A stretch of 46,290 bases of DNA, taken from Methylobacter sp. (GTDB taxonomy: Bacteria; Pseudomonadota; Gammaproteobacteria; Methylococcales; Methylomonadaceae). Positions 1 through 19,499 of the stretch are shown here, piece by piece. The stretch spans positions 1-46,290 of the forward strand of contig JAURVK010000174.1 in NCBI GenBank assembly GCA_030655535.1. Direction: 5' to 3'. The notes under the pieces were generated by a model. That model was not told where the DNA came from, did no database searches, and saw only the letters and a program-made list of their open reading frames with translations. A program made the translations under genes and the position numbers. Numbering within the stretch: position 1 is the first letter of the stretch; each line of letters starts with the position of its first letter.

Positions 1-100
1 CACGAAGAACATGGAGAGCACGAAGTTTTTAATGCCTTGAATTAACGTTGTTATTTTCTCCGTGTCCTTCGTGTTCTCTGTGGTAAAACATTTTTTCAGC
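1..100. repeat. imperfect inverted repeat, CGTGTCCTTCGTG type
   Basis: The left edge holds CACGAAGAACATGGAGAGCA at 1-20 and a roughly complementary stretch at 59-84 (CCGTGTCCTTCGTGTTCTCT). It lies downstream of bamD. A weak relative (CATGCTCTTCATGGTAAAAA) occurs near 5300-5320. It is best read as a copy of a short dispersed palindrome; no coding potential was seen in 1-151. Confidence 0.45.
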
Positions 101-151
101 CCGATTTGGATAATACTTTCACAGTCTCTCCCGCGTGGGAATGCAGATCGT

Positions 152-991: not shown

Positions 992-1111
992 AGTGTTAAC
1001 GACACGTTGTAATATTGTGGGTTTTCTCGCTGGAAATAACTGCGATACTTGAAATGGCTGGAAGTGTCCCGCGAGTATAACTTAACAATGGGTTAATCAG
1101 AAGAACTTGTT

Positions 1112-2056: not shown

Positions 2057-2777
2057 ACAATGGCTGACCCCGGAATGGCCCGCACCTGCAAATATTCATG
2101 CGGCGACTACCTTGCGTGTCGGCGGGGTGAGTTGCGGCGTATACAGTAGCCTTAATCCGGCCATGCATGTGGGCGATGACACTGACCTCGTCAAGCAAAA
2201 CCGGCAGATTATTAAAGATTTGTTGGGATTGCCTGGCGATCCGGTTTGGCTGGATCAAATACACAGCAATCGGGCAGTGCAGGCGGTAACAACCGAACCC
2301 TTGCAACAAGCCGATGCCAGCTATACCGCTGAGTCTGGAATTGTCTGTGCGGTGATGACGGCGGACTGTTTGCCGTTGTTGATTTGCTCGACTGACGGAA
2401 GCCAAGTGGCGGCCATTCATGGAGGATGGCGGGGCTTGCTGACAGGCGTGATCGGCAATACCGTCAGTGCCATGCAAGATAGCGATTTACTGGTTTGGCT
2501 AGGGCCTGCAATCGGCCCAGGCTGCTTTGAAGTCGGCGCTGAAGTCAGGGATGCTTTTTTGGAAAAATCGGCAGCATTCCTATCGGCTTTTAAACAGCAA
2601 AGCAACGGCAAGTGGCTGGCAGATATTTATCAACTGGCCCGAATCGATCTGGGCATGTTGGGTATAGATAAGGTTTACGGCGGCGGTTTTTGTACCGGCA
2701 CCGAACATGACCGTTTTTATTCCTATCGCAGGGATAAACAAACAGGGCGTATGGCTACGCTAATTTGGAGAGCATAA
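2043..2777 (+). CDS. pgeF: peptidoglycan editing factor / multi-copper polyphenol oxidase family (YfiH)
   Basis: This 244-residue protein belongs to the YfiH/PgeF (DUF152) family. Members have been described both as editors that keep L-Ser out of the peptidoglycan stem peptide and as purine nucleoside phosphorylase/adenosine deaminase enzymes. The family metal-site motifs are visible: WLDQIHSNRAV, VMTADCLPLLI and AIHGGWRGLLTGVI, then FEVGAEVRDAF and a C-terminal YSYRRDKQTGRMATLIW. It starts inside the 3-prime end of rluD (ATG at 2043), the usual rluD-pgeF order. The stop is followed after 4 nt by the ZIP gene. The family call is firm; which activity matters in the cell cannot be told from sequence. 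Confidence 0.9.
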   Translation: MSGIKQWLTPEWPAPANIHAATTLRVGGVSCGVYSSLNPAMHVGDDTDLVKQNRQIIKDLLGLPGDPVWLDQIHSNRAVQAVTTEPLQQADASYTAESGIVCAVMTADCLPLLICSTDGSQVAAIHGGWRGLLTGVIGNTVSAMQDSDLLVWLGPAIGPGCFEVGAEVRDAFLEKSAAFLSAFKQQSNGKWLADIYQLARIDLGMLGIDKVYGGGFCTGTEHDRFYSYRRDKQTGRMATLIWRA

Positions 2778-2781
2778 ACTA

Positions 2782-3600
2782 GTGGATTTATTGATATTAA
2801 TTATCATCTTTACAGCGGTTGGCGGCGTATTAAGCGTTATGGCAGCCGCCGTTTTCTTGTTGTTGCCCGATCATCGCAGGAATGCGGTGTTGCCGCACGG
2901 GATCAGTTTTGCGATTGGCGCATTATTGGCGGTTGCCTTTTGGGGATTGATTCCCGAGGCATTTGGGCAAGTTAAACCTGAGCAGTTTCAAGCCTTATCC
3001 GGGACAATTTTAGCGGGTATACTCGGTTTTTTCGTATTGGAAAAATTGCTGATTTGGCGGCATTGTCATTCCGGCAGTTGTGAGGCGCACGGCGAAGAAG
3101 ACGATCACGAACACGCGCATAGTCACAGTCATGGCATGGCTAAGTCAGCCGGGGCGTTGATTATTCTCGGTGACGGTATCCACAATTTTGTCGATGGGGT
3201 TTTAATCGCGGCAGCGTTTTTGACCGATGTGCATTTGGGGATAGTGACCAGTCTGGCGGTTGCAGCGCACGAAATTCCTCAGGAAGTCGGCGATTTTGCG
3301 ATTTTGCTGCACAGCGGTTATTCCAAAAAGAAAGCGCTTTTTTACAATATGCTCGCCAGTTTAACCACTGTTTTGGGTGGCGTGTTGGCGTATTTCGGCT
3401 TGGAAGGCTTGCACGACAGCTTGCCGTATTTCCTGGCGTTGGCGGCCTCAAGCTTTATTTATATCGCGGTAGCCGACTTGATCCCGTCATTGCATAAAAA
3501 GACCGACATGAAGACCTCGTTGCAACAGATCAGCCTGATTGCTATGGGAGTATTGCTGATTTGCTCATTGCACGGTATTGCTCATAATATGGAAGTTTAA
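2782..3600 (+). CDS. ZIP-family divalent metal transporter
   Basis: A 272-residue integral membrane protein of the ZIP (Zrt/Irt-like) family, which moves Zn2+ or other divalent metals toward the cytoplasm. Around eight hydrophobic segments are visible. A histidine-rich cytoplasmic loop lies near residues 95-117 (HGEEDDHEHAHSHSHGM). The two signature helices follow: HNFVDGVLIAAAF, with the metal-binding His-Asn, and AVAAHEIPQEVGDFAILLHS, with His-Glu. The start is GTG at 2782, four bases after the pgeF stop, so it is probably the last gene of the rluD operon. Metal specificity cannot be assigned. The symbol zupT is avoided because the protein more resembles the GufA/SLC39-type bacterial ZIPs. 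Confidence 0.88.
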   Translation: MDLLILIIIFTAVGGVLSVMAAAVFLLLPDHRRNAVLPHGISFAIGALLAVAFWGLIPEAFGQVKPEQFQALSGTILAGILGFFVLEKLLIWRHCHSGSCEAHGEEDDHEHAHSHSHGMAKSAGALIILGDGIHNFVDGVLIAAAFLTDVHLGIVTSLAVAAHEIPQEVGDFAILLHSGYSKKKALFYNMLASLTTVLGGVLAYFGLEGLHDSLPYFLALAASSFIYIAVADLIPSLHKKTDMKTSLQQISLIAMGVLLICSLHGIAHNMEV

Positions 3601-3894
3601 GATAAATTGTAGGGGCGACCGGCCGGTCGACCATTGCGTAAAGGCATGAGTTATTTACAGCGGTTTCAATGTTGGTTAGCAATCAACATAATATTGTCGC
3701 TGGAGTGCAGGCTTCGCCTGCTCTGGCAAGCAAAGTTTGCACTCCCAGTGCGCCTATATTGAGTCATCAACTGAATTTGAAAACGCTGTAATTTCATTCC
3801 TTAACGTTTTTTCGCTGCCTGGACAAGAGGCTACATCTAGCCAACGTAAAGCATTTCGGATGGGGCAACATGCCCATCCGGCAGAGGGTAACTA
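3601..3894. other. intergenic region with short palindromic repeats
   Basis: This sits between convergent ZIP and mscL genes. It has one GTAGGGGCGACCGGCCGGTC copy (3609-3628), then an imperfect inverted repeat GGAGTGCAGGCTTCGCCTGC (about 3701-3720) followed by a TTTGCACTCC arm. There is a small GGATGGGG...CCCATCC stem near 3859-3880. No convincing gene; open frames here are shadows of mscL. Confidence 0.5.
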
Positions 3895-4314
3895 TTATTT
3901 TCTGTCTTTGAGTAAATCTCGAATTTCGGTCAATAAGAGCTCTTCCTTGGAAGGTTCCGGAGCTGCTGTAGGAACCGCCGCTTCTGTTTTTTTAAGGCTA
4001 TTGAGGAACTTTACGGCCATAAAAATAGCAAAGGCAATAATCGTAAAATCAACCATGCTTTGAATAAAATTGCCGTAATTAAGGGTCACGGCAGGCGCGT
4101 TTTCAGCGGCGTCTTTTAGAGTGTATGCCAGCTTGGTAAAGTCTACGCCGCCGATCAATACGCCAATCGGCGGCATAAATACATCGGCAACCAGGGAAGA
4201 AATGATTTTGCCGAACGCGGCGCCGACAATGATGCCCACGGCCATGTCTATAGCATTGCCCTTGATGGCGAATTCTTTGAATTCTTGTAACATGCCCATA
4301 ATCGACTCCTTCAT
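3895..4314 (-). CDS. mscL: large-conductance mechanosensitive channel MscL
   Basis: MscL is the emergency release valve that opens on membrane tension during hypo-osmotic shock. The 139-residue product has the diagnostic N-terminus ([20 protein letters not shown]), with TM1 glycines in [19 protein letters not shown], a periplasmic loop, TM2 ([20 protein letters not shown]) and a charged C-terminal cytoplasmic helix. Length matches the family (about 136). The ATG at 4314 is the first Met giving the extra MKESIMGML leader; Met6 at 4299 is a less likely alternative. It is monocistronic by appearance, with a GTCCCCAG/CTGGGGAC stem upstream. Confidence 0.95.
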
Positions 4315-4350
4315 TTTTTGACGGTACCGGCGAGGTGATTTTTGGCCCGA

Positions 4351-4375
4351 GTCCCCAGATAGAAATTCTGGGGAC
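4351..4375. repeat. perfect 8-bp inverted repeat upstream of mscL
   Basis: GTCCCCAG at 4351-4358 is perfectly complementary to CTGGGGAC at 4368-4375, with a 9-nt loop. It lies 37 bp before the mscL start. It could be an mRNA hairpin or a dispersed repeat; function is unknown. Confidence 0.5.
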
Positions 4376-4468
4376 GAGTGGGTGGACAGCTCGGGTTTTC
4401 CTTGGCTTGACAGTGAGAACTTAAGTACTCCTACTTAGTCAATTTAGAAATAACGGGTTCCTGTAACT

Positions 4469-4494
4469 GTGGGGGCGGCTTGCGTCGCCCCCAC
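4469..4494. repeat. GTGGGGGCG palindrome
   Basis: GTGGGGGCG at 4469-4477 pairs with CGCCCCCAC at 4486-4494 over an 8-nt loop. It belongs to the same broad family of GTRGGGGCG palindromes seen at 30641, 31097 and 33089. It lies between the Met-rich protein gene and mscL and could also act as a terminator of the former. Confidence 0.55.
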
Positions 4495-4551
4495 ATCCAG
4501 TTGCTTGACCGTCAGAATAAAGTTGACTGAGCACTCCCCTCTCCACTCCGG

Positions 4552-4926
4552 TTATTTTTTAAGCTCTTGTTTCTTTTGTTGATGCTGTTCCATCTTTTGT
4601 TGGCGGTGCTCCATCATTTGAGCGTGGTGCGCTTTCATCAGCTCCAATTGCTGATTTTTTAACGTTTCTTTTTTGGCGGCGTCTTTCTCTGACAAAATCT
4701 GATTTGAGAGGTCATGCATCTGCAGCATATGTTCCTGCATGGAGCGCATATGTTCATTTTTTTGTTCTTCGGTCATGCCGCTCATCATGCCCATTCCTTG
4801 ATGCATGCCCATTTCTTTCATTGGCATATCGGTTTTTTTCGGATCTGCGGCGGAACTCATCATGCTTATGGGCAGCAACAGTAATAGCACAGCAGTTGAT
4901 TTATAGAGATGTTTCATCGGGATCAC
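4552..4926 (-). CDS. small Met/His/Gln-rich periplasmic protein, putative metal-stress type
   Basis: A 124-residue protein with a clear signal peptide (hydrophobic core AVLLLLPISMMSSA, cleavage near residue 27). The mature part is very rich in Met, His, Gln and Lys, with runs such as MGMHQGMGMMSGM and MEHRQQKMEQHQQKKQELKK. The middle and end should form a long helix. Methionine- and histidine-rich periplasmic helices recall the CpxP/Spy/ZraP-like and copper-binding groups, but no LTxxQ signature is evident, so only a metal-binding or chaperone-like role is suggested. ATG at 4926, or equally Met4 at 4917; a good ribosome site (AAGGTGATC) precedes. No clear family match was recognised. Confidence 0.7.
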   Translation of the reverse strand: MIPMKHLYKSTAVLLLLLPISMMSSAADPKKTDMPMKEMGMHQGMGMMSGMTEEQKNEHMRSMQEHMLQMHDLSNQILSEKDAAKKETLKNQQLELMKAHHAQMMEHRQQKMEQHQQKKQELKK

Positions 4927-5364
4927 CTTGGTTGGGTTGATTAGGTTAAGGGTTAATTGTATGTGCGATCAACGTTCTGAAGAAATAAAAAGATTGTGTT
5001 ATTGACGGACGGAAAATAACATCTGTCATTCTAGGTGTATTTGATTGTATTTCAATAGGTTAAAATACCTAGTAGGGGGTGCTGATGCGTAACAATGTCT
5101 CATTGATCCTTTATCCGGTTTATAGCTTGTTTTTATTGCCATGAAGGACATGAAGATAATGGAATTGGGCGATTTGTCGAATAAGGCTTTCTAATCAACT
5201 TTACTGTAAAGCTATTAAAGCAGAACTAAAAAGTTTTGTTTTATACAATCATCTCTATAGGAAACGCAGCAAGTCAATACAGTGAATTCTTCAAGCCTTT
5301 CATGCTCTTCATGGTAAAAACAAATGACATTCCCTGAAATCAACACCCTGCCGTTCCAGCTCGG
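4927..5364. other. 438-bp non-coding stretch with operator-like inverted repeat
   Basis: AT-rich region upstream of the Met-rich gene and downstream of the GGDEF/EAL gene. An imperfect inverted repeat, CTAGGTGTATTT (5031-5042) against AAAATACCTAG (5062-5072), lies about 105-145 bp before the Met-rich start and could be a regulator site. The stretch 5290-5320 resembles the repeat at the left edge of the window. No gene seen. Confidence 0.35.
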
Positions 5365-8300
5365 CTACGCACTACAATGACGGTGTTTCCGTCTGTTCAG
5401 CCCTAACAGGCTCTGTTTGAATTGTTCCGCAGGAACCGGTCTGCCAAACAGATACCCTTGAAATACCAGACATCCGTAATTTGTCAGATATTCGCGTTGA
5501 ATCTCCGTTTCTACCCCTTCGGCAATAACGTTAAGGTCAAGGTTTTTTCCCAGTGCCAGAATGGTTCTGATAATGGCGGAGTCATGATTGTTAAACGCCA
5601 TATTTCTGACGAATGATTGGTCTATTTTTAGCTGCGCCAAGGGGAGTTTTTGCAGATAAGACAGCGACGAATAACCGGTACCGAAATCATCCAACGAAAA
5701 ACTGACTCCCAAATCCCTGACAGCATGCATTGTAGCAATGGTGTCTTCCATATTATCCAGAATCACGGACTCGGTAATTTCCAGTTTGAGCAAGGCGGGG
5801 TTGGCGCCGGTTTCTGCCAGTATCGTACGCACTTGCTCAATAAAATCAGGCTGATTGAGCTGTCGACTGCTGATATTGACCGCCAATTTCAGCTCGCGGG
5901 TTTCAGGGTATTTTGCCCAATCCACCAAGGTTTCGCAGCCTTGTTTCAATATCCAATGACCGATAGGCAAAATCAGACCGGTTTCTTCGGCAAGCGGAAT
6001 AAATTCGGCAGGAGAAATCATACCGCGCTCGGCCTGATTCCAGCGTATCAGCGCCTCTGCACCAGTCGGCTGTCCAGATACGTCGACCTGTACTTGGTAA
6101 TGTAAACTCAATTCGTTGCGGCCTAGTGCATTGCGCAAATCGGTTTCCAAAGCTGTCCGCGAATTTAAAGTCTCTTGCATTTCAGGAGTAAACGCGCGTA
6201 CCGCATTTCGTCCGGCTTGTTTGGCCTGATACATGGCTAGATCGGCACGCTTAAGCAGTTCTTCGCTGCTGGTTTCGTGGCCAAAAAACAGCACAAAACC
6301 AATACTGCCCGTGGAATAGTGTTCGACAAAAGGCTGTAGTTTATTATCGACTGCCAGGGATGGCGGAAGTGTCGCAGTCGGTAGGGAACCGGCGCGATCG
6401 GCTGCCAGGGATGGCGGCCGCGACTGCTCCCGGCAGTCTTCGGCATTCCCTCCATCCGTGGAGGTCAGAAGTGTCGCAGTCGGTACGACTGCAGGGATGC
6501 AGGAGGTAGAGCAACGCATGGAGCGGTTGCCGAGGGAATCGACGCGATCGAGATTAGTTTTCAATAGGTAGAATTCAGCCAGATTGTTACGAATTTTTTC
6601 TGCAATAATGTGGGCCTGGATGGATGCCTCAATCTCTTGTTTATCGAGAAACTCCAGCATAATCACAAACTCATCACCGCCAAGGCGGGCAACGGTATCA
6701 ACTTCGCGTACACTGTTTTTTAATCGTTGTCCCACTTCGATCAGCAATTGATCGCCCCGGTCATGCCCCAGCGTATCGTTAAGCGTTTTAAAATTATCAA
6801 GGTCAAGGAACATTAACGCTCCGTGGGTCTTGTTACGATGGCTGGTGTTGAGCGCCAGATTGAGTCGATCGAACAGTAGCGTCCGGTTAGGGAGTTTGGT
6901 CAGGGAATCGTAGTAAGCCAGATCTTTGATGCGCTCTTCATCGGCCTTGCGCTGGCTAATATCGGTGAAGGTGCAGACATAGTTGGTAATCAGGCCTTCA
7001 GGGTTAGAAATAGCGGTTATGCACAGCCATTCAGGATAGATCTCACCATTTTTTCTTTTATTCCAGATTTCGCCTTGCCAGTATTTATTGCGATTGATGC
7101 TTGCCCACATAGCCGCATAGAATTCACTGTCTTGCCGACCGGATTTGAGTATGCCTGCGGATTTACCGATAACCTCATCCGCACTGTAACCGGTTAGTGC
7201 GGTAAACGACTTGTTGACGCGCAAAATATTATTGTTGGCATCGGTGACCAGTATGCCTTCCTGGGATTCAAACGCTGCCGCCGCAATGCGCAGCTCGTGC
7301 TCGGCTTTGAGTCGCAGCTTTTCGTGGTCGAAATTATCCAGCGCATAGGAAAGATCGTCAGTCAGTCCGCGCATCAGGTCAATCAGATCGGGGGTAAAAT
7401 AGTCTTGTTCAGCTGAGTAAACGGCAATAGCCCCAATACAGCGACCGCCACGCATCAACGGGAATGCGGCGGCGGCCTTAATGTTTTCTGCAGCAGCCAT
7501 GGGTTGCCAGGGCAGCGTACTGGGTGCATTGAGAAAGTTGTTGAAGATTTTCGGCGCGCCGTCCCGGATTGCCGTTCCCATCGGTCCATGCCCCTCCGGC
7601 AATGCTTCATCCGCCGAGACTTTGATATTCCGAAGGTAGGTAGAATCGGGATGACTGGCTGCTACTGCACGCACCCAGCCATCCGGTTCGGTCATGCCCA
7701 CCCAAACCAAGTTAAAGTCAACATGATTGACTATGATCCGGCACACCTCGTTCAGTAACTTAACCTCGTCCGACTCGCGCACAATGATGTCGGCGCTCTG
7801 GGTCCATGCCGCATACAGGCGGTTGATTCGCACTCGCTGCCGTTCGGAATTGGACAGGGCATCGAGCATTTGATTAAAGCCGTGCGCCAGTATGCCAACC
7901 TCGTCATTGCCGGAAATATGCGCCCGCACATCGAGGTTTCCTCTCTCGACTTCGGCGGCTACCCGTAGCAGGTGATGCAATCTTCTGGTGAGTCTTCGCG
8001 CCAGTAGTATTGCGGCCGCCAATACGGTCAGCGCTGCAAACACTATAAAATTGATGCCCATGACCATAACGGAGTGGAGGTTGGCATTGACCCCGTTCAT
8101 GGTCATTTCTACCCGCGCCCATCCCACATGGCGCTCCCCAGCCATCACCGGTGCGGCAACATCAATTTGATGAGTATTGGCGAGCAATACTTGAGTTGTT
8201 GGCGGGGAACTTAACAGTTTTTGATTCGGCGCGTCGGTAACAAACAGCCCCGCCTCGTCAGGCCGTGTGGAACTCAGCACTTCGCCGCGCAACGATAAGA

Positions 8301-8596: not shown

Positions 8597-9649
8597 TTAT
8601 TCTAAAGGTCGCACTGTTTTGATAAAGGTTGCAATAAATGTCTGTACCGGTTCGTAACTGTCATCATTAGCCGGTTCAAAACGGCTAACCGGAATACGCG
8701 CCAGCATTTCGCGACCTTGCTGATGCCGGTCGAGATTAAACAGCAGCGTAGCAAACTTGTTTGTCACCTCTGTCGGCAGGTTTTTGCGCACCACCCAGCC
8801 GTTGTTTTGCAACGGCTCGGTTCGCCATTTGACTTCGAGCTGGTCGGCTAGCTGGGGATTTTCCTTGCTGAATGTTTTCCATGGTACCAGCCAGGTTGCG
8901 GCCGCCGCGACATGTCCGCGCAATACGTTGATGATGGAAGACTCCTGCGAACCGACATAGCGGTTTTCGATGTCGCGGTTAATATCAATGCCGTGGGTAT
9001 GCAGATAATACTGGGGCATCATGGTCGCAGCCAGTGCAGTTGGCGCAGGATAAGATACCGTTTTGCCCTTGAGGTCGGCAACGGTGTTAATGCCGCTGTC
9101 GCGACGCACCAGAATAATGCCGCGAAAATCATCATCATCGGCCATCTTGCCGAATACGCGATAGCCATGTTTAAGCGAGTTGACGGTTTGATAAGGATTA
9201 GGCATCGCAAAATCAAAGTATCCGTTGTAGAGCTTTTTGTCAAACTCCTCATAATTGCGCGATGCTTCCAGGGTAAAATCCGCTTCAGGAATATTTGCGT
9301 TAAGAAAATCGACGATGGGGCCGTAAATTTCAAACAGTAACTTGGGATTATGCAAGGGATGAATAGCTATTATATATTTAGGTGCTTTAGATCTGCTTTG
9401 TGCGCTGAAACTGGGTTTATAAATATCATCGGACTGCTTGTTCCAGCCCGCAAGCAACGGTAAATCCGACAATAGTTTCCACCATTTGATGATGACGGTT
9501 TCTTGGTGTTGTTCGGCATTATCTTTCGATATTTGGACGGTTTCGGCTTGATCCGCTACGGTTTCCAAGGGATGAGCGTCAGCAAAAACAGCAAAGTTAA
9601 AGATCGACAGCAGCGTTATGAGGCTATATCGGCGTAAAATTTCAAGCAT
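8597..9649 (-). CDS. PhnD-like periplasmic phosphate/phosphite/phosphonate-binding protein
   Basis: A periplasmic substrate-binding protein of the PhnD family (type II fold). The preferred ATG at 9649 (350 residues) gives a clean signal peptide, MLEILRRYSLITLLSIFNFA followed by VFADA. The longer frame would use TTG at 9682 and put residues in front of the signal. Family features are AIHPLHNPKLLFEIYGPIVD, ASRNYEEFDKKLYNGYFDFA, the phosphate-loop region VADLKGKTVSYPAPTALAAT and VLRGHVAAAATW. No ABC permease or ATPase is nearby; its partner is the GGDEF/EAL gene one base downstream. It probably acts as a ligand sensor for that enzyme rather than as a transporter subunit. Ligand unknown. Confidence 0.85.
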   Translation of the reverse strand: MLEILRRYSLITLLSIFNFAVFADAHPLETVADQAETVQISKDNAEQHQETVIIKWWKLLSDLPLLAGWNKQSDDIYKPSFSAQSRSKAPKYIIAIHPLHNPKLLFEIYGPIVDFLNANIPEADFTLEASRNYEEFDKKLYNGYFDFAMPNPYQTVNSLKHGYRVFGKMADDDDFRGIILVRRDSGINTVADLKGKTVSYPAPTALAATMMPQYYLHTHGIDINRDIENRYVGSQESSIINVLRGHVAAAATWLVPWKTFSKENPQLADQLEVKWRTEPLQNNGWVVRKNLPTEVTNKFATLLFNLDRHQQGREMLARIPVSRFEPANDDSYEPVQTFIATFIKTVRPLE

Positions 9650-9774
9650 TATATAAGGTTGAAGCTCTGCAGCGGTCGTCAAGGTACGCTACGTTAATTT
9701 GCAAAATAGGTATTATTACGTAGGCGAGGCGAACAAAATGATACCCGTAATAGTTGGGTATTGGAATTTATTTG

Positions 9775-9796
9775 AACCTCCTTTTTACAGGGAGGG
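9775..9796. repeat. short AACCTCC...GGGAGG palindrome
   Basis: AACCTCCTTTTTACAGGGAG followed by GG forms a small hairpin between the divergent PhnD-like and phoB genes. Closely similar sequences occur at 22818-22840 and, more degenerate, at 22750-22770, so this is a small dispersed repeat. Confidence 0.45.
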
Positions 9797-9829
9797 TCTT
9801 AACTTCGTCATTATAATAAGCAAATCCTT

Positions 9830-9849
9830 TTTGTCATAAAAGGGTAACA
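9830..9849 (+). promoter_or_regulatory. possible Pho box before phoB
   Basis: TTGTCATAAAAGGGTAACA resembles two 7-bp direct half sites (TTGTCAT and GGTAACA) spaced as in the PhoB-binding consensus CTGTCATAAATCTGTCAC. It lies 46-65 bp before the phoB start, a place where autoregulation would be expected. The second half site is poor, so this is a candidate only. Confidence 0.45.
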
Positions 9850-9894
9850 TGTGGTTTGTTAAAATATCCTGTTTATTATGATGCTATTTGATAT

Positions 9895-10617
9895 ATGTCT
9901 AGTTTAAATATTCTCGTTGTTGAAGATGAAGATGCCATCAGGGAGATGTTGATGATGGTTCTTGAGCAGGCCGGCTTTAGGTCGATTGCAGCAGCGGATT
10001 CGGAAGACGCGCAAAAAGTTCTGGATGAGGTTTTGCCTGACTTGATTTTATTGGACTGGATGTTGCCGGGAGTCAGTGGTGTCGAATGGGCCAGACGCTT
10101 AAAAAAAGATCCCATGTATCGGGAACTGCCTATTATTTTATTGACGGCGCGAGGTGAGGAAGAAGATAAGGTTAAAGGCTTGGAAATCGGCGCAGACGAT
10201 TATATGACCAAACCTTTTTCACCCAAAGAGTTAGTGGCTCGTATCCGCGCAGTTTTACGCCGTAGCGGAAAAATAAACGATCTGGCGCAAATTACTGTGG
10301 GCGATCTGGTTCTTGATACCGAACAGCACCGACTCAGTATCGGCGATAAACAGCTGGATGTAAGCCCGACCGAATTCCGTTTAATGCAGTTTTTTATGAC
10401 CCATCCCGATAAAGTCTTCAATCGCACCCAATTACTGGATCAGGTCTGGGGGCGTAGTGTCTACATCGAAGAACGAACCGTTGACGTACATATACGGCGG
10501 TTACGAAAAATTTTGGCAGAATATGGGCGGGAGGATTTAGTTCAAACCGTGCGCGGTTTCGGCTACCGGTTTTCCGTGGCTAATTCGTCAACTGTTTTTG
10601 TATCCATGCCGTTGTAA
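9895..10617 (+). CDS. phoB: phosphate regulon response regulator PhoB
   Basis: A 240-residue OmpR/PhoB-family response regulator. The receiver domain (1-120) has the acidic pair in LVVEDEDAIREML, phospho-acceptor Asp in LILLDWMLPG, Thr in IILLTARGEEED and Lys in MTKPFSPKELVARI. The C-terminal winged-helix domain carries SPTEFRLMQFFMTHPDKVFN, ERTVDVHIRRLRK and TVRGFGYRFS. The PhoB-specific DWMLPGVSGVEWARRLK stretch and the following phoR make the assignment strong. The C-terminus has about ten extra residues beyond GFGYRFS. Upstream lies a possible Pho box. In the cell it activates phosphate-starvation genes when phosphorylated by PhoR. Confidence 0.94.
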   Translation: MSSLNILVVEDEDAIREMLMMVLEQAGFRSIAAADSEDAQKVLDEVLPDLILLDWMLPGVSGVEWARRLKKDPMYRELPIILLTARGEEEDKVKGLEIGADDYMTKPFSPKELVARIRAVLRRSGKINDLAQITVGDLVLDTEQHRLSIGDKQLDVSPTEFRLMQFFMTHPDKVFNRTQLLDQVWGRSVYIEERTVDVHIRRLRKILAEYGREDLVQTVRGFGYRFSVANSSTVFVSMPL

Positions 10618-10622
10618 TAAAC

Positions 10623-11903
10623 ATGGGTGTCTGGCAAAAAGAACTCATTACCGGATTGCTGCTGTTTTTAGCGGTATCGATAACGGGTGGAATGACCGGG
10701 CTGTTTACGCCCTTGGTGTTGGTGTTGGCGCTGGGCATGTTAATGCGCCAGCTGTACCAGGTTAATCGATTTGAAAGATGGATACGAACAGGGGGCAGGG
10801 CCAAGTATCCCAAGACATCCGGCGTTTGGGAAGAAATTTATTACCATGTCTACCGCATTAAAAAGAACGAAAAAAAACGCAAAAAGAAACTGGGAAAAAT
10901 GGTTGACCAGTTTCGCCAGTCCACGGAAGCGTTACCGGATGCAGCTATCGTTTTGGGCGCCAACGACGAGATTGAATGGGCGAATAAAGCGGCCAGAGAA
11001 GTTTTCGGCTTGCAGCAATCGGATAAAGGCCAACGCATTCCCAATCTTATTCGTTTCCCGGAATTTATTCGCTATCTTAAATCCAGAAATTATAGCGAGT
11101 CTGTCATATTACCCTCCCCGGTAAACAATCGTATCACACTGGCGGTGCGGATTATCGCTTATGGCGCAGGCTTGCGCCTGTTATTGGCTCAGGACGTTAC
11201 GCAGCTGAAAAAAATGGAAAGGATGCGCAAGGATTTTGTCGCTAATGTGTCGCATGAACTCAGAACGCCTTTGACCGTATTGAAAGGTTATCTGGAAACC
11301 TTGCAGGACATGGATGACGGCGAGTCACCCTTATTGACCACCTCGTTCCAGCAAATGCAGGGACAGACCGAGCGCATGCAGCATCTGGTTGATGATTTGC
11401 TATTGCTGACCCGCCTGGAAACCCAGCAGAAGAAAACCGAGTGCGTTAATGTCCCGGCTTTATTAAGTCAGATTTGCAAGGAAGCGGAGACGATACATGG
11501 CAATCTCCCGGGCCGGATCGAATTAACCCTGGAAAACGACGTGAATATAATGGGTGAGGAGCAGGAGTTGCGTAGTGCCTTTACCAATCTGTTGGGCAAT
11601 GCACTTAAATATTCGCCGGATAACTCCGTGGTAAAAGTGCGCTGGTATCAATCCAACGATACTATCATGCTGGATATTGAGGATCATGGCGAAGGCATTG
11701 CGGCTGTCGATATTCCTCGTGTTACCGAACGGTTTTACCGGTCTGAAGTCAAACGCATCAAGAAAGTGGGCGGTACCGGGCTAGGCTTGGCTATCGTCAA
11801 ACATGTGCTGATGCGGCATGATGCCAAGTTAAACATTACCAGTGAATTGGGTAAGGGCAGTTGTTTCAGTTGTCATTTTCCGGTTAAACGAATATGTAAT
11901 TAG
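10623..11903 (+). CDS. phoR: phosphate regulon sensor histidine kinase PhoR
   Basis: A 426-residue membrane histidine kinase, partner of PhoB. Two hydrophobic N-terminal segments (about 8-26 and 28-40) are followed by a basic linker (KKNEKKRKKKLGKM), a PAS domain (about 95-195) and the HisKA dimerisation helix with DFVANVSHELRTPLTVLKGY (phospho-accepting His near 211). The HATPase domain has the N box NLLGNALKYSP, the G1 box DHGEGI and the G2 box KVGGTGLGLAIVKHV. Size and layout match PhoR (about 430). It starts 5 nt after phoB. It is expected to sense phosphate status through the Pst/PhoU system, which is not in this window. Confidence 0.93.
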   Translation: MGVWQKELITGLLLFLAVSITGGMTGLFTPLVLVLALGMLMRQLYQVNRFERWIRTGGRAKYPKTSGVWEEIYYHVYRIKKNEKKRKKKLGKMVDQFRQSTEALPDAAIVLGANDEIEWANKAAREVFGLQQSDKGQRIPNLIRFPEFIRYLKSRNYSESVILPSPVNNRITLAVRIIAYGAGLRLLLAQDVTQLKKMERMRKDFVANVSHELRTPLTVLKGYLETLQDMDDGESPLLTTSFQQMQGQTERMQHLVDDLLLLTRLETQQKKTECVNVPALLSQICKEAETIHGNLPGRIELTLENDVNIMGEEQELRSAFTNLLGNALKYSPDNSVVKVRWYQSNDTIMLDIEDHGEGIAAVDIPRVTERFYRSEVKRIKKVGGTGLGLAIVKHVLMRHDAKLNITSELGKGSCFSCHFPVKRICN

Positions 11904-11921
11904 CACGACAAGCCGGTGTGC

Positions 11922-12093
11922 TAGGCAACTCGCAATAAATAAAATATCTGATTATCAAATACAATGGAACGCAGATAATTCAAGAAAAATCTTATTTGAT
12001 CTTAATTATCAGCGTTATCTGCGTTCCATTTTTCTAACTGCTGAGTAGTTAAAATTGTAGGATGTGGCGGTTTATTTTTTGCGAGTTGCCCTA
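11922..12093. repeat. outer inverted repeat around a small element
   Basis: TAGGCAACTCGCAATAAATA at 11922-11941 is mirrored imperfectly at 12071-12093 (TTTATTTTTTGCGAGTTGCC then CTA). The right arm continues from a GTAGGATGTG motif at 12057, a motif also seen at 22105. Together they enclose the 68-bp inverted-repeat element at 11963-12030, giving a nested structure between phoR and the jetD stub. Confidence 0.5.
11963..12030. mobile_element. 68-bp MITE-like inverted-repeat element, copy 1
   Basis: AATGGAACGCAGATAA (11963-11978) is perfectly complementary to TTATCTGCGTTCCATT (12015-12030). The interior has GATAATTCAAGAAAAATCTT and AATTATCAGCG, also found with small changes in the element at 32598-32714. 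Two copies with shared core and inverted ends support a mobile, non-autonomous repeat. It has no coding capacity. Confidence 0.7.
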
Positions 12094-12096
12094 CGC

Positions 12097-12495
12097 TTAA
12101 TTCGAGGCGATAGCAGGAAGATTGATTTGTGGAGAGGCCGACTCTGAATAAGCGGGTATAGAATGAAACTGCATAAGCGCCGATAACGCGGATTCCATCC
12201 AACCGAAGCCTATCCTTTCCTGCTCAAGACGCAGATTTTTGCCTATCCGATTGTCCCGTAAATCATTATAAAGCGCCATCTCAGCAGGGTTTAGCCTGGG
12301 CAAGTCGCGCAGCGTCTGTTTCTCTTCCTCGCCCCATTGCGATTCGAACGCCAGCAAGGTGGCGCGATCCATCAGGAACGACTGCACAGGGTCGAACCGG
12401 CTGCGGAGCTGATCGAGAATAGCGAAGCCGTGGGTGTCGATATCGCCCCAATAATGAATGCGGCAGCGCGAAAGCCAGTCGGCTTTGCGTAACAT
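12097..12495 (-). pseudogene. jetD: C-terminal remnant of Wadjet nuclease subunit JetD
   Basis: JetD is the TOPRIM-family nuclease of the Wadjet SMC system, which cleaves small circular DNA. Intact JetD is about 390-400 residues; only 132 remain here. They begin at MLRKADWLSRCRIHYWGDID and keep the Asp-x-Asp motif and following helix (THGFAILDQLR) of the DUF2220 domain, plus the ending RLEQERIGFGW. The N-terminal DUF3322 domain and the first TOPRIM motif (catalytic Glu) are absent. The reading frame is that of genuine JetD, and its ATG overlaps the TGA of the jetC stub by one base (TGATG). A deletion of the jetC 3-prime part and the jetD 5-prime part is the simplest explanation. A functional nuclease is very unlikely. 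Confidence 0.8.
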
Positions 12496-13592
12496 CAGTT
12501 ACGAATATCGACAGTCAGCCGCTCAAGACGGTCGCCGCCGTTATCGGCAATGCTGCGTTTGAGTTCGTCCGCCTCGATGCGTTGCGCGTCACGGAACTGT
12601 TCAAGGCGCTTGACCTGGGCATCCTGTTTTCTCCATTCATCGGCAAGGCCGGCGATGCGTTTCTCCAGAAGCCCTAGTTTCAGGTTCGCGAAGTAGGGTC
12701 TCAGCGCCTCGCGGCAGGCGCGCAGTTCTTCGACTTGCGCCGCAAGGGACGCATGATGTCCGCAGTCGGCAACCAGCGGCGTGAGCAATTCCACTTGCCG
12801 CTTGGCCTTTAACACCGCCTCATGCGCCCGGTTCAGGTCATTGAAGTGGCCGATCAAGGCCGCGATGCGCGGCGCAACATCGAAAGGTTCGAGCATATGG
12901 CTGCGGACAAAGTCGGTCAGGTTACCGACCGACTTCATCGACACCGTTTGATGAAACAGTTCCAGCGCCTGTTCATTATCGATGCCGAAACGGCGGCGGA
13001 ACCAGGCGCCGTAGGGCGGAAAGCTGTCAAACAGCTCAGCGCCTAAGCCTCGCAGTTTCTTGCGCAGTCCGCCGATGTCCGAGCCGAACTGTGCGAAGTC
13101 TGTCGCAATTGATAAGGCGCGTTCCGCACCGACAAAGAAGCGTGCAGGTTGGCCTTGCGCATCTTTCATCCGGAAGACCTGCGCCAACGTCACCGTTTGG
13201 TCGTAGCCCGCGTTATGAAAAACGCCCAGTATCACCGAATAGTTGTTGTGGTCGCGTAGCGCTACGGGTTTGGCGGTTCCGCTCACCTCGTTGCGCTCGG
13301 ACTTGTAATGCCCCAGCACATAGGAGCGTAGCGACCGCTCTTTGCTGTCGGCACCGGCGGCCTTGTTGTAGGCGATGCGGTGCGCCGGCACCAGCAGCGT
13401 GGTGACTGCATCGACCAGCGTCGATTTGCCCGAGCCAATATCGCCGGTCAGCAAGGCGTTCTTCCCGTCAGGATTGAGCGTCCACACCCGGCCGTCGAAG
13501 GTGCCCCAGTTGAAGACTTCCAGGCGATGCAGGCGGAAGCCCGAAAGCGCATCATCGTTCATGAAATCGAGGCTCAATTGCATATCATTCAT
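12495..13592 (-). pseudogene. jetC: N-terminal remnant of Wadjet SMC-like ATPase JetC
   Basis: JetC is the SMC/MukB-like ATPase that drives DNA loop extrusion in Wadjet. Intact JetC is roughly 1100 residues; this frame has 365. The N-terminal head is intact with the Walker A loop [20 protein letters not shown] and the family stretches RSYVLGHYK and [15 protein letters not shown]. The first coiled coil begins near residue 280 and the frame stops just after [15 protein letters not shown]. The hinge, returning coil, ABC signature and Walker B are gone, so no composite ATP site can form. The ATG at 13592 overlaps the jetB stop as ATGA; a longer start at 13649 would lie well inside jetB and is rejected. 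Confidence 0.82.
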
Positions 13593-14299
13593 GGTGCACT
13601 TCCTTGTGCACCACCCTTCGGGTGGCCTTCGTCCATGCAAATCGGCCATCCTGCCGATTTGTCATCAGTATTACTTCCCGAGGTTATGCCGAGCTGTGCC
13701 TGATATGCAGCCAGCCGCATATCGAAATCCGCCAGCCATTGCGCGTCGACAAAGGCCTTGAGGATGCGCCGCACCTCGAATGCGGCAGTTTGTCCTGCGG
13801 CCGGTTTAAGCTTGCGCAGGAAGCCCAGTTCGACGATCTTGTTCAGATGGGTCTCGATCTGGTCGATCAGCCGGGCCTCGTTGCTGCTTTCGGGCAGGAA
13901 CACCCGGACCAATTCGGCGATTTCATCCCGGGACAGCACCAGCCGTGTGTCGCCGCCGCTTGCATCGAACTCGGCCAGCTTCTTGCGCAGCAATGCCAGC
14001 AGCAGGCTTACCGGAAACGACAGGGGACGTCTGGCAATCAGGCGCGGAAGCTTTGGCGTTGCGTCATCGTCAGCTTCCTGACGCGAGCGCAGGAAGGCAT
14101 AGCCCTCAGCCTCGTCAAGCACCAGCTCCAGGCCCAGTACCGCCACATAGTCGCGCACCCGCGCTTGCAGATTGAGCAAGGCATTCCAAAGGCCGACGTC
14201 CGCTTCCTGATAGATCACGCCTTTGAGTAAAAGTATGACCTGGGCCGACAAGTCATGCGTTGCTGCGAGGGGTTCAAGTTCAAGTTCTTGTTCTGTCAT
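13589..14299 (-). CDS. jetB: Wadjet subunit JetB (MukE-like, DUF4194)
   Basis: JetB is the small KITE (MukE-like winged-helix) partner of the Wadjet kleisin. The 236-residue protein shows the family pattern [71 protein letters not shown] and [20 protein letters not shown]. The last is the winged helix that would contact the kleisin. Length is close to DUF4194 proteins. It starts two bases after the jetA stop and overlaps jetC by 4 nt, so the four-gene operon architecture is preserved. It appears intact, yet its partners jetC and jetD are not. Confidence 0.87.
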
Positions 14300-14301
14300 T
14301 C

Positions 14302-15756
14302 TTACCTCATAAAGATCACGCGCGGCAAACGCGCCTGTTTCGCCTGTTCCAGGCCATCGTCCCCTGTGCGTTTCCAGGCGATGGTATCGGCTGTATCTTC
14401 ATCCACCATTGTCTTGAAAGTATCGCCTGCGAGTTGCAGGTACGCCACCAGTTCCGCCAGACCATGTTGTAGCGGCTGCATCTTGCACAGCTCATGCAGA
14501 GTCACTTGCGAGCGATCCTGTAAGGCGTGGCGGATATGCCTGCCCAATTGCGCCTTGTCGATTACGATTTGCGAGTACAGCGCTGCCGCATCCATATCGG
14601 CATCGCCCGATTCCAGTTCTATATCGGCGATCAACGGTTTGATGGTCGGCGTGTGGAGCGGCCGTTCCATCGGCAACTCGATATCGGCAGCGGTGTCCGC
14701 AATGCTCATAACCATTCCCTGCGGTTGCGATTCCCTCATGTTAAGCGCCTTGGCCTCAATGCCGTGCAGGATGTCCATGATGCGGCGGTTCTCCAGCCAG
14801 GCCTGGTCGTCCAGAAAGCGGCGCAACTGTTGCGAAAGCTGGGCCACGGTGCGCTGCGTGTGTTCGCCGGCTTCCAGCCAGTCGTAATGCACGCGCCGGG
14901 TGCGGGCGTCGGGCTCCAGTTCGGCGACCGGCGGCAGGGCCAATACGCGGTCAAGCAAACTTGAGAGTTCTTCCTGGCGGCTGCTGGACATCAGGAAATC
15001 CCAAAAGGCGCGAAAACTGCGGCCCTGGTCGGAGTCGGCAATGGCGTCGCGCTCGCCCATGATGTCTTCCAGCAATGCGCCTTTGGAGCCTTCCCACAAC
15101 GCAATGCGTTCCCGCACGCGCCTGTCCAGCCTGCGGAAGTTGTGTTCCACCTCCCGGAAATCGCTGAGCAGCTCGCGCGCGAGCTGAATGAACTGTTGAA
15201 AGCGGTCTTTCAGCGCCGTGTCCTCCAGCAACGGAATGTCCCCGGTCAGTGCGCGTGCAATCTCGGCATCGATTTCATCGCGCCGCTTGTGCAATTCGGC
15301 AATACGCGTTTCCGGGTCGGTCTCGCTGCCTTCGCTCATCTGCTTGAGCAGCTCGAACAGCGTCAGCAGGCGCGACTCGGTGCCCACGAAACTGCGCTCG
15401 GTGAGCGTCCCCAGCCAGGCAATCGCCTTTTCGGTGGAAGGGGTCAGGTCGAAATGCGGCTCGTCCGACCCGTGGACGTAGAACTTGCGCAGCCAACCCT
15501 TGTCGGTGGCCGCCCAGTCGTTGAGGTAGTCCGGCGCCGTTTTCGGGAATGCCTCTGCACCCAACCGTTCGCGCAGGGCGAACAGTTCGTCTTCCAGCGC
15601 TTCAGCTAAATCCGCTTGCGCCATTACCCGGACGTTGGGCGCGATGAACACGCGTTGCAGAAAGCTCGCCACCAGCGGCGCATGCGGCGAATTCAGCAGC
15701 CGCCAGGCCGGGTGGTTCTGGCGCAGCAGGTCAAGGGTGGCGTAGTCCAGACTCAA
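14302..15756 (-). CDS. jetA: Wadjet kleisin subunit JetA (MukF-like, DUF3375)
   Basis: JetA is the kleisin that bridges the JetC heads in the Wadjet plasmid-defence complex. The 484-residue protein begins with the family N-terminus LSLDYATLDLLRQNHPAWRL and contains DYLNDWAATDKGWLRKFYV, SFVGTESRLLTLFELLKQM and FWDFLMSSSRQEELSSLLDR, typical of DUF3375. The start codon is TTG at 15756; GGAGGT lies 6 nt upstream, and the TTG overlaps the TGA of a preceding 38-codon ORF. Length matches intact JetA (about 480-500). It is probably now without function, since the ATPase and nuclease subunits are truncated. Confidence 0.88.
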   Translation of the reverse strand: MSLDYATLDLLRQNHPAWRLLNSPHAPLVASFLQRVFIAPNVRVMAQADLAEALEDELFALRERLGAEAFPKTAPDYLNDWAATDKGWLRKFYVHGSDEPHFDLTPSTEKAIAWLGTLTERSFVGTESRLLTLFELLKQMSEGSETDPETRIAELHKRRDEIDAEIARALTGDIPLLEDTALKDRFQQFIQLARELLSDFREVEHNFRRLDRRVRERIALWEGSKGALLEDIMGERDAIADSDQGRSFRAFWDFLMSSSRQEELSSLLDRVLALPPVAELEPDARTRRVHYDWLEAGEHTQRTVAQLSQQLRRFLDDQAWLENRRIMDILHGIEAKALNMRESQPQGMVMSIADTAADIELPMERPLHTPTIKPLIADIELESGDADMDAAALYSQIVIDKAQLGRHIRHALQDRSQVTLHELCKMQPLQHGLAELVAYLQLAGDTFKTMVDEDTADTIAWKRTGDDGLEQAKQARLPRVIFMR

Positions 15757-15869
15757 TCCGTGACCTCCAGGCCGACTTCAGGATAGGCGCACTCCTTGTT
15801 AATAACGCCTGTGCGTACGTCATTTAGCCGGACAACAGCCTGTTTGCTTCGATCATGGATTGGAGTCAT
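15753..15869 (-). CDS. 38-residue small ORF ahead of jetA
   Basis: An ATG at 15869 follows a very strong ribosome site (AGGAGG, spacing 4 nt). It opens a 38-codon frame starting MTPIHDRSKQAVVRLNDVRT and ending GLEVTD. Its TGA overlaps the TTG start of jetA as TTGA, the coupling pattern used between the other jet genes. The peptide is hydrophilic with no signal or membrane segment. I do not recognise it. It may be a leader peptide that sets jetA translation, a small accessory subunit, or the tail of a lost gene. Confidence 0.55.
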   Translation of the reverse strand: MTPIHDRSKQAVVRLNDVRTGVINKECAYPEVGLEVTD

Positions 15870-16082
15870 TGCTCCTCCTGTATAGTTGGGGTAAAAAGAA
15901 GCTTTGTGAGCTTTCCCTTTACACATAGCTTAAACTATTGTGCGGATTTCAGGGGGCACTTTTAGAGCTTTTGTTGCTATCACGCAAAATAACCAGCCAT
16001 TCTCAGTCTTGAGTCGTTAACTGCTATATCTGAATCACAGCTATGCTTAACAGTTTGTTATTGACCTAGCCTAAACAGCCCG

Positions 16083-16111
16083 CTTGAAAACAATCGGATT
16101 ATCCCCCATGT
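16083..16111 (+). promoter_or_regulatory. sigma-32 heat-shock promoter of clpB
   Basis: CTTGAAA (16083-16089) and CCCCATGT (16104-16111), separated by 14 nt, match the RpoH consensus CTTGAAA-N(11-16)-CCCCATNT exactly. The clpB start lies 40 nt downstream. This is the clearest promoter in the window. Confidence 0.88.
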
Positions 16112-16150
16112 TAGCAGTAACTTAAAAAACTCTTTGATAAGGTAAATATT

Positions 16151-18727
16151 ATGCGTATGGACAAATTGACCAGCCTATTTCAAACGGCGTTGGCCGATGC
16201 ACAAAGTATGGCTTTGGGTAAAGACCATCAATTCATCGAGCCGACCCATGTGCTGCTGGCATTGCTGGATCAGCAAGGCGGCAGCATCAGGCCGTTGCTG
16301 ACCCAGATGGGTGTCAACACCCAGTTGCTGCGCACCGAGCTGGTCAGGGAGCTGGGCCGTATTGCAACGGTTAGCGGTTCCGGCGGCGACGTGCAGCTTT
16401 CCAATGAATTATCGCGGCTGCTGAATTTAACCGATAAATTGGCGCAAAAGCGCAACGACAAATTCATCTCCAGCGAGCTGTTCTTGTTGGCGGCTTTTGA
16501 AGAAAAAGGCCTGCTTCAGGACCTGTTTAAAAAAGCCGGGATCACTAAACAGGCGGTGGAAAAAGCCATCGATGCGATGCGCGGCGGTCAGCCGGTCGAT
16601 GATGCCAATGCCGAAGAGCAGCGCCAGGCCTTGAAAAAATACACCATCGACCTGACCGAGCGCGCAGAACAGGGCAAGCTGGACCCGGTGATCGGACGGG
16701 ATGACGAGATACGCCGGACGATCCAGGTTTTACAGCGGCGCACCAAAAACAATCCGGTACTGATCGGCGAACCGGGCGTGGGCAAGACCGCGATTGTCGA
16801 AGGCTTGGCGCAGCGTATCGTCAACGGCGAAGTGCCGGAAGGCATCAAGGGCAAGCAGGTGTTGGCGCTGGATATGGCGGCGCTGATTGCCGGAGCCAAG
16901 TTTCGCGGCGAATTCGAGGAGCGTCTGAAAGCGGTGTTAAACGATCTCGCCAAACAGGAAGGCCAGGTGATTTTGTTTATCGACGAGCTGCACACGATGG
17001 TCGGTGCGGGCAAGGCCGAAGGCGCAATGGATGCCGGCAACATGCTGAAACCGGCGCTGGCGCGCGGCGAATTGCATTGCGTGGGCGCCACCACGCTGGA
17101 TGAATACCGCAAATATGTCGAAAAAGATGCGGCCCTGGAGCGCCGTTTCCAAAAGGTGTTGGTCGATGAGCCGTCGGTTGAAGACACTATCGCTATCCTG
17201 CGCGGCTTGAAGGAAAAATACGAGGTGCATCACGGCGTCGATATTACCGACCCGGCCATTATTGCGGCGGCGAATCTGTCCTACCGTTACATCGCCGACC
17301 GGCAGTTGCCGGACAAGGCCATCGATCTGATCGACGAGGCGGCCAGCCGTATCCGTATGGAAATCGACTCCAAACCGGAGGAAATGGACAAACTGTATCG
17401 GCGTTTGATTCAGTTAAAAATCGAGCAGGTGGCGCTGAAAAAAGAAAAAGATGCCGCCTCCAAAAAACGTCTGGAAATTCTGGAAGAGGAAATCGCCGAT
17501 CTGGAAAAAGAATATTCCGATCTGGAAGAAATCTGGAAAGCGGAAAAAGCTTCGTTGCAGGGTTCGGCATCGATCAAGGAAAAGCTGGAACAGGCCAGAA
17601 CCGAACTGGAAGCCGCCAGCCGAGCCAATGATCTGGCGCGGATGTCCGAGTTGCAGTACGGCATTATTCCGGCGCTGGAAAAACAATTGCAATCAGCGGT
17701 ACCGGCTGAAACAAAGAAAATGACCTTGTTGCGCAACAAGGTCACCGAAGAAGAAATCGCCGAAGTGGTGTCGAAATGGACCGGCATTCCGGTGTCGAAA
17801 ATGATGGAAGGCGAACGCGACAAGTTGTTGCGTATGGAAGAGCAGCTCAGCAAACGGGTGATCGGCCAGGAAGAAGCCCTGAAAGCGGTCAGCAATGCGA
17901 TCCGCCGTTCCAGAGCCGGATTATCAGACCCCAACCGTCCCAACGGTTCGTTCCTGTTTCTGGGGCCGACCGGCGTCGGTAAAACCGAGCTGTGCAAGGC
18001 GCTGGCCGAGTTTATGTTCGACACCTCCGATGCGATGGTGCGCATCGACATGTCCGAGTTTATGGAAAAACATTCGGTGGCGCGGCTGATCGGTGCGCCT
18101 CCGGGTTATGTCGGCTATGAAGAAGGCGGTTATCTGACCGAACTGGTCAGGCGCAAGCCGTATTCGGTCATTTTGCTGGATGAAATCGAAAAAGCCCATC
18201 CCGATGTGTTCAACATCCTGTTGCAGGTGCTGGACGACGGTCGCTTGACCGACGGACAGGGCAGAACCGTTGATTTCAGGAATACCATCATCGTGATGAC
18301 CTCCAACCTGGGCTCGGATATTATCCAATCGCTGTCCGGCGAAGCGCTGTATTCGGTGATGAAAGCGGCGGTCATGGACATCGTCGGCACCAAGTTCCGG
18401 CCCGAATTCATCAACCGGATCGATGAAGCGGTGGTGTTTCATTCCTTGGGTCGCGGACAGATTCGCGCCATTTCCGGCATTCAAATCGAATACTTGCGTA
18501 AACGTTTGCTGGATCGAGAAATCGGCTTTGAAATAACGGAAGAAGCGCTGGATCTGTTAGGCGAGGCGGGTTTTGATCCGGTTTACGGCGCAAGGCCGAT
18601 GAAACGGGCTATTCAGCAACAGCTTGAAAACCCGTTGGCTCAGCAGATACTGGCAGGCGACTTTGTCGCCGGGGATACCATAAAAGTGGATGTTGAGCAT
18701 GAGACCTTGCGGTTTTTGAAAGGCTAA
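16151..18727 (+). CDS. clpB: ATP-dependent disaggregase chaperone ClpB
   Basis: ClpB is a hexameric AAA+ machine that rescues aggregated proteins with DnaK. The 858-residue chain has the Clp N domain (about 1-148), AAA1 with Walker A GEPGVGKT at 206-213 and Walker [16 protein letters not shown], the M-domain coiled coil (about 410-525, [21 protein letters not shown] region) and AAA2 with [14 protein letters not shown] and [17 protein letters not shown]. The C-terminus has the [20 protein letters not shown] signature. The M domain separates ClpB from ClpA/ClpC. Length is the usual 857-860. Met1 or Met3 (16157) could be the start. A perfect heat-shock promoter sits upstream. Confidence 0.97.
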
Positions 18728-18819
18728 GATTGGCTAAGGTGGGGCATTGCCTTTAAGTGGCTTCCTATTTTAAGCCGGGACAGGCATTTTAAATTTGATA
18801 ACACTGATGTTATTTTATT

Positions 18820-18861
18820 GTGGGAGCGATGCCCTCATCGCGACGAGGGCATCGCTCCCAC
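18820..18861. terminator. 17-bp perfect stem-loop between convergent clpB and HupE-like genes
   Basis: GTGGGAGCGATGCCCTC (18820-18836) pairs perfectly with GAGGGCATCGCTCCCAC (18845-18861) around an 8-nt loop that can itself pair partly. It lies about 93 bp after clpB and 71 bp after the HupE-like stop, so it could terminate both. No T-run follows, so it may instead be a copy of a REP-like dispersed palindrome. Both readings are compatible. Confidence 0.6.
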
Positions 18862-18932
18862 ACTGTATTCCTAAGCCGGACGGAGCAACATGCCCCGTCC
18901 GAATGTTCCTGTTTCCCATCCTCGCAGACTGA

Positions 18933-19499
18933 CTAAACAGCGGCTAAATAATACAAGCCGCTGCTTAAGCAGGCTAATGAAAACAGGTAGTTCATACGCC
19001 TGCCTGTGCTTAGACCTAATACGCCGCCGGTCAGGCAAATAACCAGACTCATCAGCATTAACGAGGAAAAATACAGCAAGGCGCTGGAATCGGCTGGAAT
19101 TTCTGCGGCATGGGCATAGCCGTGGAAAACGGCAAAAAACGAGACGCTCAAAAAAAGTATTTTAGACCGTTGTTTTTGGCTGATAGCGACCAACAAGCCG
19201 AAGGCCGCCAACGATAAAGCGATGAATGCTTCAACAAACGGTATTTGCACCGCATAAACATTAAGCAAGGCTCCAGCCGCCATCAATGCCAGAAAAACAG
19301 CCGGAAAGGCAAACACAGCTTTGCCGCCCTGTTTAGCCGCAATCCAGCCGACCGCCATCAAGACCAATAAGTGATCGATACCGGTTAAAGGATGCAGTAA
19401 ACCGCTGATCAAACTGTGGTCGATATGTCCGCCGGTATGTGCATAAAGTGACGGCGATACAAGACATAAGGCGGCAATTAGCCCGTTTTTAATACGCAT
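18933..19499 (-). CDS. HupE/UreJ family membrane protein
   Basis: A 188-residue membrane protein of the HupE/UreJ family, members of which are thought to carry nickel (or cobalt) for hydrogenase and urease. It has a signal-like first helix (GLIAALCLVSPSLYAHTGGH), the family signature HPLTGIDHLLVLMAVGWIA with conserved His and Asp, then five further hydrophobic segments. AVFHGYAHAAEIP holds another conserved His pair. Length is in the normal 180-210 range. No hydrogenase or urease gene is nearby, so it stands alone. It is transcribed toward clpB with a shared stem-loop. The family is clear, the metal is inferred. Confidence 0.87.
   Translation of the reverse strand: MRIKNGLIAALCLVSPSLYAHTGGHIDHSLISGLLHPLTGIDHLLVLMAVGWIAAKQGGKAVFAFPAVFLALMAAGALLNVYAVQIPFVEAFIALSLAAFGLLVAISQKQRSKILFLSVSFFAVFHGYAHAAEIPADSSALLYFSSLMLMSLVICLTGGVLGLSTGRRMNYLFSLACLSSGLYYLAAV

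Follow-up and report, generated by a model that had tools for sequence, protein, structure and literature searches.

Probable inactivation of a type I Wadjet operon in Methylobacter by a recent deletion of about 3.1 kb spanning jetC and jetD

Loss of Wadjet, a plasmid-defence system encoded by jetABCD, has been described before. One example locus in the PADLOC paper is a type I Wadjet with a frameshifted jetC (PMC9252829). In Clostridium cellulovorans a spontaneous deletion of ~23 kb takes in Wadjet genes, and a made deletion of jetABCD increases transconjugation by about five orders of magnitude (PMC12287153). The Wadjet-type system EptABCD carries a null mutation in a laboratory strain of Mycobacterium smegmatis, as a passage of a review reports (PMC10586767). 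Here we describe an operon of Methylobacter sp. in a window of 46,290 nucleotides, which is contig JAURVK010000174.1 (positions 1 to 46,290) of the draft genome GCA_030655535.1 (2.76 Mb, 179 contigs, 87.8% complete). Judged from its homologues, the stretch 12097–15756 on the minus strand is a type I Wadjet operon by ancestry. Very probably, a recent deletion of ~3.1 kb has killed this once complete operon, an ordinary loss that would not create a new machine.

All four Jet genes are matched by the PADLOC type I Wadjet models, lie on one strand and follow the order of the intact operon described below. The kleisin gene jetA (14302–15756, minus strand) is full length and encodes 484 residues from a TTG start; it matches model JetA1 over positions 1–478 of 480 (E 1.1e-227) and Pfam DUF3375. 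The KITE gene jetB (13589–14299, minus strand) is also full length, with 236 residues, and matches JetB1 over 9–198 of 207 (E 2e-96) and DUF4194; MksE and AAA_29 are the further Pfam matches in the operon. The end of jetB overlaps the start of jetC. The jetC frame (12495–13649, minus strand) gives 384 residues from its first ATG and 365 from the homologous ATG at 13592, so the stub at 12495–13592 covers residues 1–365 of 1122 and ends with a TGA at the junction. It matches JetC1 over 3–363 of 1123 (E 1.8e-175). The jetD tail (12097–12495, minus strand) encodes 132 residues, which are JetD residues 287–394 plus 24 others, and matches JetD1 over 281–388 of 391 (E 2.6e-50) and JetD_C over positions 75–178 of 179. 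A sequence-only reading had proposed this layout, with jetA and jetB complete, a JetC stub of 365 residues and a JetD tail in native frame, the two meeting at TGATG; its coordinates and lengths hold, and the PADLOC models and the alignment below agree with it.

The intact counterpart is found in Methylobacter tundripaludum OWC-G53F (locus L022, also genome G018:C4), the best named match by JetA. Its operon is complete, with a JetC of 1122 residues starting at 12185 and a JetD of 394 residues starting at 15553. It occupies the same chromosomal site, flanked by clpB and by phoR-phoB (genes named by eye), and the order and orientation of the flanks are identical in the two genomes. The retained parts share 91% (JetA), 88% (JetB), 95% (JetC) and 92% (JetD) protein identity with L022, where JetB has 219 residues. 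Aligned across the joint, the window has exchanged 3131 bp of L022 for 2 bp, slightly more than the 2.8–3 kb that had been estimated from family sizes. The junction (12495–12498, minus strand) shows a clear change-over. Sequence derived from jetC runs up to codon 365 (AAC) at 12498, a filler TG occupies 12497–12496, and jetD continues from its codon 287, an ATG with its first base at 12495. Both fragments are thus in native frame with 2 bp between them, and the window is without JetC 366–1122 and JetD 1–286. These missing parts were not found elsewhere in the assembled genome (87.8% complete, 179 contigs); besides the stubs, a search with JetC and JetD gave one weak match (E 0.018), which involves a part of the query ahead of the JetC start. 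In this respect the locus resembles a pseudogene operon, with an intact orthologue at the same site and key parts that turned up nowhere else in the assembled genome. We propose that a complete jetABCD once stood between clpB and phoR, and that a deletion of ~3.13 kb reaching from jetC codon 365 to jetD codon 287 would have removed it from service, probably as a real event in the organism.

The missing span includes conserved residues of both proteins. Among 66 aligned loci, the JetC segment SGGQKEKLAY (1011–1020), which we take to be the signature motif, is invariant. The stretch 1045–1055, presumably in the Walker B region that starts at 1045, is invariant except for one residue in one locus. 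Both are absent from the window, and the stub retains Walker A (JetC 50–58). In JetD, Glu261, Asp304 and Asp306 are invariant in 65 aligned loci. The tail keeps the Toprim DxD pair Asp304/Asp306 and lacks Glu261 together with the N-terminal part. An alignment places Glu261 opposite residue 248 of PDB chain 8q72_M, whose deposited name is JetD(E248A), the position being counted by hand. The operon consequently encodes neither a full SMC subunit, which would carry signature and Walker B besides Walker A, the stub stopping at residue 365, nor a JetD with the N-terminal CAP domain and the conserved Toprim acidic residues. Nor does it make up an MksBEF-like condensin without nuclease, which would have a complete SMC ATPase, kleisin and KITE; of JetC there is only the stub. 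Because the signature, Walker B and the JetD glutamate are lost, the machine should not work and the remnant should not restrict plasmids. With the SMC motor and the nuclease both gone, restriction of small circular plasmids by the Wadjet route has most likely ceased in the cell, and the fragments probably do nothing.

The remaining genes show little sign of decay. Pairwise ratios of nonsynonymous to synonymous substitution rates (dN/dS) against L022, which the sequence-only reading had put forward as a check for jetA and jetB, are 0.157 for JetA, 0.134 for JetB, 0.065 for the JetC stub and 0.182 for the JetD tail. Substitutions were also polarised by a majority rule (60%) over 13 outgroups, and the nonsynonymous/synonymous counts of the window branch were compared with those of the L022 branch: 14/21 and 22/36 for JetA, 5/11 and 9/13 for JetB, 3/17 and 8/31 for the JetC stub, 5/4 and 5/6 for the JetD tail. 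None of the four segments differs by Fisher test (p 0.73–1.00), on small counts and with 43, 16, 35 and 6 differing sites, respectively, left out as ambiguous by this rule. An 80% majority rule likewise gives no difference (JetC stub 2/8 and 7/16, JetD tail 3/2 and 4/1). When all outgroups must agree, few sites remain, and a tendency towards relaxation, not significant, is seen in the JetC stub only (3/3 and 2/11, p 0.26; JetD tail 3/0 and 1/0). For the flanking genes 0 changes were scored, the outgroups being too few. Relaxed selection is thus not established, suggesting either that the deletion is recent relative to the divergence of the operons or that the stubs are still constrained. Recency is the simpler of the two; jetA and jetB would not yet have had time to decay and would be open for that reason.

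The short form is not the normal state of a Wadjet operon, as far as the compared genomes indicate. JetA occurs in 5 of 23 genomes of the genus, its own included, and in the other four carriers (G008, G010, G018 and G020) JetC and JetD each have one near full-length match. The junction, allowing up to 3 mismatches, is found in its own genome only (1 of 23). A second set holds named loci, the best 80 of at least 549 confirmed JetA matches, and overlaps the genus set (L022 = G018, L025 = G008). Scored by a simple open-frame rule, by which the label 'broken' is provisional, all four genes are full in 63 of the 80. The other 17 comprise six with JetA only, four with JetC cut by a contig end, two with a broken JetC frame and the rest full (L036, L054), one with a JetB frame under the length limit and the rest full (L028), and four other mixtures (L030, L031, L033, L098). 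All but five of these 17 (L028, L036, L054, L064 and L098) reach a contig end. Full JetA and JetB with two such stubs occur in 0 of the 80 named loci, 12 of which run into a contig end. Relatives of jetA and jetB are therefore not constantly accompanied by these short forms, a pattern that had been named as one that would refute a collapse. In viral contigs, 5 stretches matched a pattern and none is a JetA relative. The window locus was not found in a literature search whose scope did not extend to bioRxiv and most subscription journals.

Several points weigh against a recent single deletion in the organism. The joint has a 2-bp filler and no microhomology, and a search for Ku gave 0 of 23 genus genomes (1 of 14 in a control set, Bacillus subtilis), which leaves the joining route unexplained. 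The joint TGATG equals the overlap that jetC and jetD natively have in L022. That the missing part is absent rests on a genome in 179 contigs that is 87.8% complete, and the deletion, known from assembled sequence, may reflect a local assembly error or a minor strain. Finally, the lack of relaxation also fits stubs that keep a function.

The tidily coupled stop and start codons of the joint had been pointed out from the sequence and are a real oddity. In L022 the TGATG overlap lies at 15551–15555, and among 66 named loci this form is present in only two (L022 and L097), with ATGA in 42. The ATG at the joint is also the Met287 codon of L022 JetD, and Met stands at this position in 43 of 65 loci. 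Within 150 bp of the two edges in L022, the longest word that they have in common measures 8 bp and lies away from the joint, so neither repeat slippage nor a repeat-driven assembly collapse is indicated. Possible routes are a single deletion with a 2-bp filler that met the Met287 ATG by chance, two separate shortenings, or a replication slip that copied the overlap. In the second, jetC would have been shortened to its own stop and jetD after its own start, leaving the native TGATG in place; a variant has one replication event copy the short TGATG patch. Such an origin would account for the filler and for a rare joint shared by window and L022, and the jetD start and Met287 codons would offer 3 bp in common for the second step. 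It requires two precise events, whereas a single deletion needs just the filler, the joint ATG being the Met287 codon. We regard the two-event route as unlikely, though it is the strongest of the alternatives; it concerns the route only and overlaps with the deletion reading, as the operon would be dead anyway. The sequence-only reading had named one deletion as the cause. The collapse of a Wadjet operon by deletion is supported by L022, where an intact operon occupies this site; that it was one event is not proven, because TGATG is also the native overlap. A single deletion is preferred for economy.

An assembly collapse is unlikely, and we give it a low probability. The assembler would have dropped 3.1 kb of a complete operon, which a fragmented draft would allow. 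However, there is no N in 9000–19000, the edges hold nothing to drive such a collapse, flank order and orientation match L022, and the missing part turned up on no other contig. Somewhat less probable still is that the truncated proteins are produced and have a use, with JetA, JetB, the JetC head half and the JetD Toprim fragment forming a reduced complex with another role. The coupled TGATG, four open frames and the lack of any sign of relaxed selection are consistent with it. A JetC without signature and Walker B and a JetD without the invariant glutamate argue against it, as does the occurrence of the junction in one of 23 genus genomes and of the form in none of the 80 named loci, 12 of which run into a contig end; a recent deletion would account for the lack of decay. 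The earlier suggestion of a minimal working derivative thus gains no positive support, with conserved catalytic parts gone and the form in no relative examined. A more specific version is the least probable of all: the native TGATG would have been kept because the Walker A half-head and the Toprim tail are co-translated with JetA and JetB in a new role, for example in a non-cleaving DNA-binding or immunity complex. Stepwise decay is very improbable, and so is a mobile element that inserted into jetC-jetD and was later excised, since the joint holds no element remnant and no scar longer than 2 bp, even though inserted genes occur in other Wadjet operons examined and a patchwork remnant exists in the same family. 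The recent deletion remains the best explanation.

The site is bordered by a clpB-like gene (16151–18727, plus strand) on one side and by a phoR-like sensor kinase gene (10623–11903, plus strand) on the other, with a phoB-like regulator gene (9895–10617) beyond the latter, all named by eye. We surveyed 20 genus stretches beside clpB. In eight (G003, G004, G010, G015, G019, G020, G021 and G022) clpB stands beside phoR with a gap of ~110–550 bp and no Jet match, and in three (G005, G011 and G013) the two are 0.8–2.3 kb apart, again with no Jet match. The operon is at the clpB-phoR site in G018, and phoR lies outside the stretch in eight, five of these ending at a contig end. In G008 the operon adjoins phoR, and clpB is on another contig. 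Against L022, the synonymous distance of the jet genes is 0.25–0.36, lower than that of clpB (0.47), phoR (0.59) and phoB (0.80), a hint that Methylobacter lineages may have exchanged the operon at the clpB-phoR site. We treat this as a lead, and DNA identity is nearly equal for jetA (0.906) and clpB (0.897). Between phoR and the jetD remnant, positions 11955–12050 hold an imperfect palindrome of ~80–96 bp that is a dispersed repeat, with the look of a repetitive extragenic palindrome or a miniature inverted-repeat transposable element. A search of its own genome (E up to 0.001) gives 63 matching rows, among them the query itself and several rows that represent both arms of a single copy, and pieces are also present in contigs of G015 (L136) and G008 (L155).

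Other Wadjet loci are eroded or interrupted in different ways. In G025, of another genus in the same family (L157, 183–6134), a second collapsed Wadjet of this family, JetD (18–392 matched), the last 270 residues of JetC and scraps of JetA remain, and there is no further JetC match in the genome. In G059 a JetA scrap of 36 residues is present and JetC has no match, and L064 has JetA with no JetB, JetC or JetD within 10 kb downstream. In G044 (L162, 4319–7647) JetC is in two frames that part near residue 670, through a frameshift either of the gene itself or of its assembly. Two candidates were rejected: G065 is not an independent case of JetA and JetB without JetC and JetD, as JetC was found 10.9 kb on, past an inserted gene block (JetD was not searched), and G033, the genome of L084, is not a clean loss of JetC and JetD, as JetC is on another contig. 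In L170 (G065, 1–8059) the 10.9 kb that split jetAB from JetC include an apparent type III restriction-modification system, recognised by eye. Other defence genes may use Wadjet operons as landing sites. Three Accumulibacter loci, L042 (11483–14959), L043 (2965–6504) and L045 (5960–9490), carry between jetA and jetB an open reading frame of 1158 residues (L042) or a ~55% identical homologue, SIR2-like by eye. In L084 (Methylomonas koyamae SM2, 11557–16872), jetA is followed, instead of by jetB, by an ATPase-like open reading frame and one of 1350 residues, to near the contig end.

The window thus offers a clean example of a plasmid-defence operon that was apparently inactivated not long ago, and a related species has its intact counterpart at the same site. 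The presence of JetA and JetB is by itself no sign of a functional Wadjet, and the locus fits a picture in which Wadjet is quickly gained, exchanged and lost in Methylobacter; no new mechanism is revealed. With the type I Wadjet JetABCD of L022 the window shares gene order, orientation and chromosomal site. As in the locus shown in PMC9252829, the pseudogene is recognised through its remaining genes; the lesion there is a frameshift, whereas here a 3.1-kb loss has also taken most of jetD. The deletion in PMC12287153 is a natural loss of Wadjet, like the one proposed here, but it is far larger and arose in culture alongside two others. In the EptABCD case, too, a lineage has lost a Wadjet-type system, its lesion being unstated in the passage of PMC10586767 that mentions it. 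A related SMC complex that has no nuclease subunit is a functional SMC complex, whereas the window lacks any complete SMC subunit. Erosion and deletion of Wadjet operons are events of a known kind, and the operon described here is one more, very clean case.

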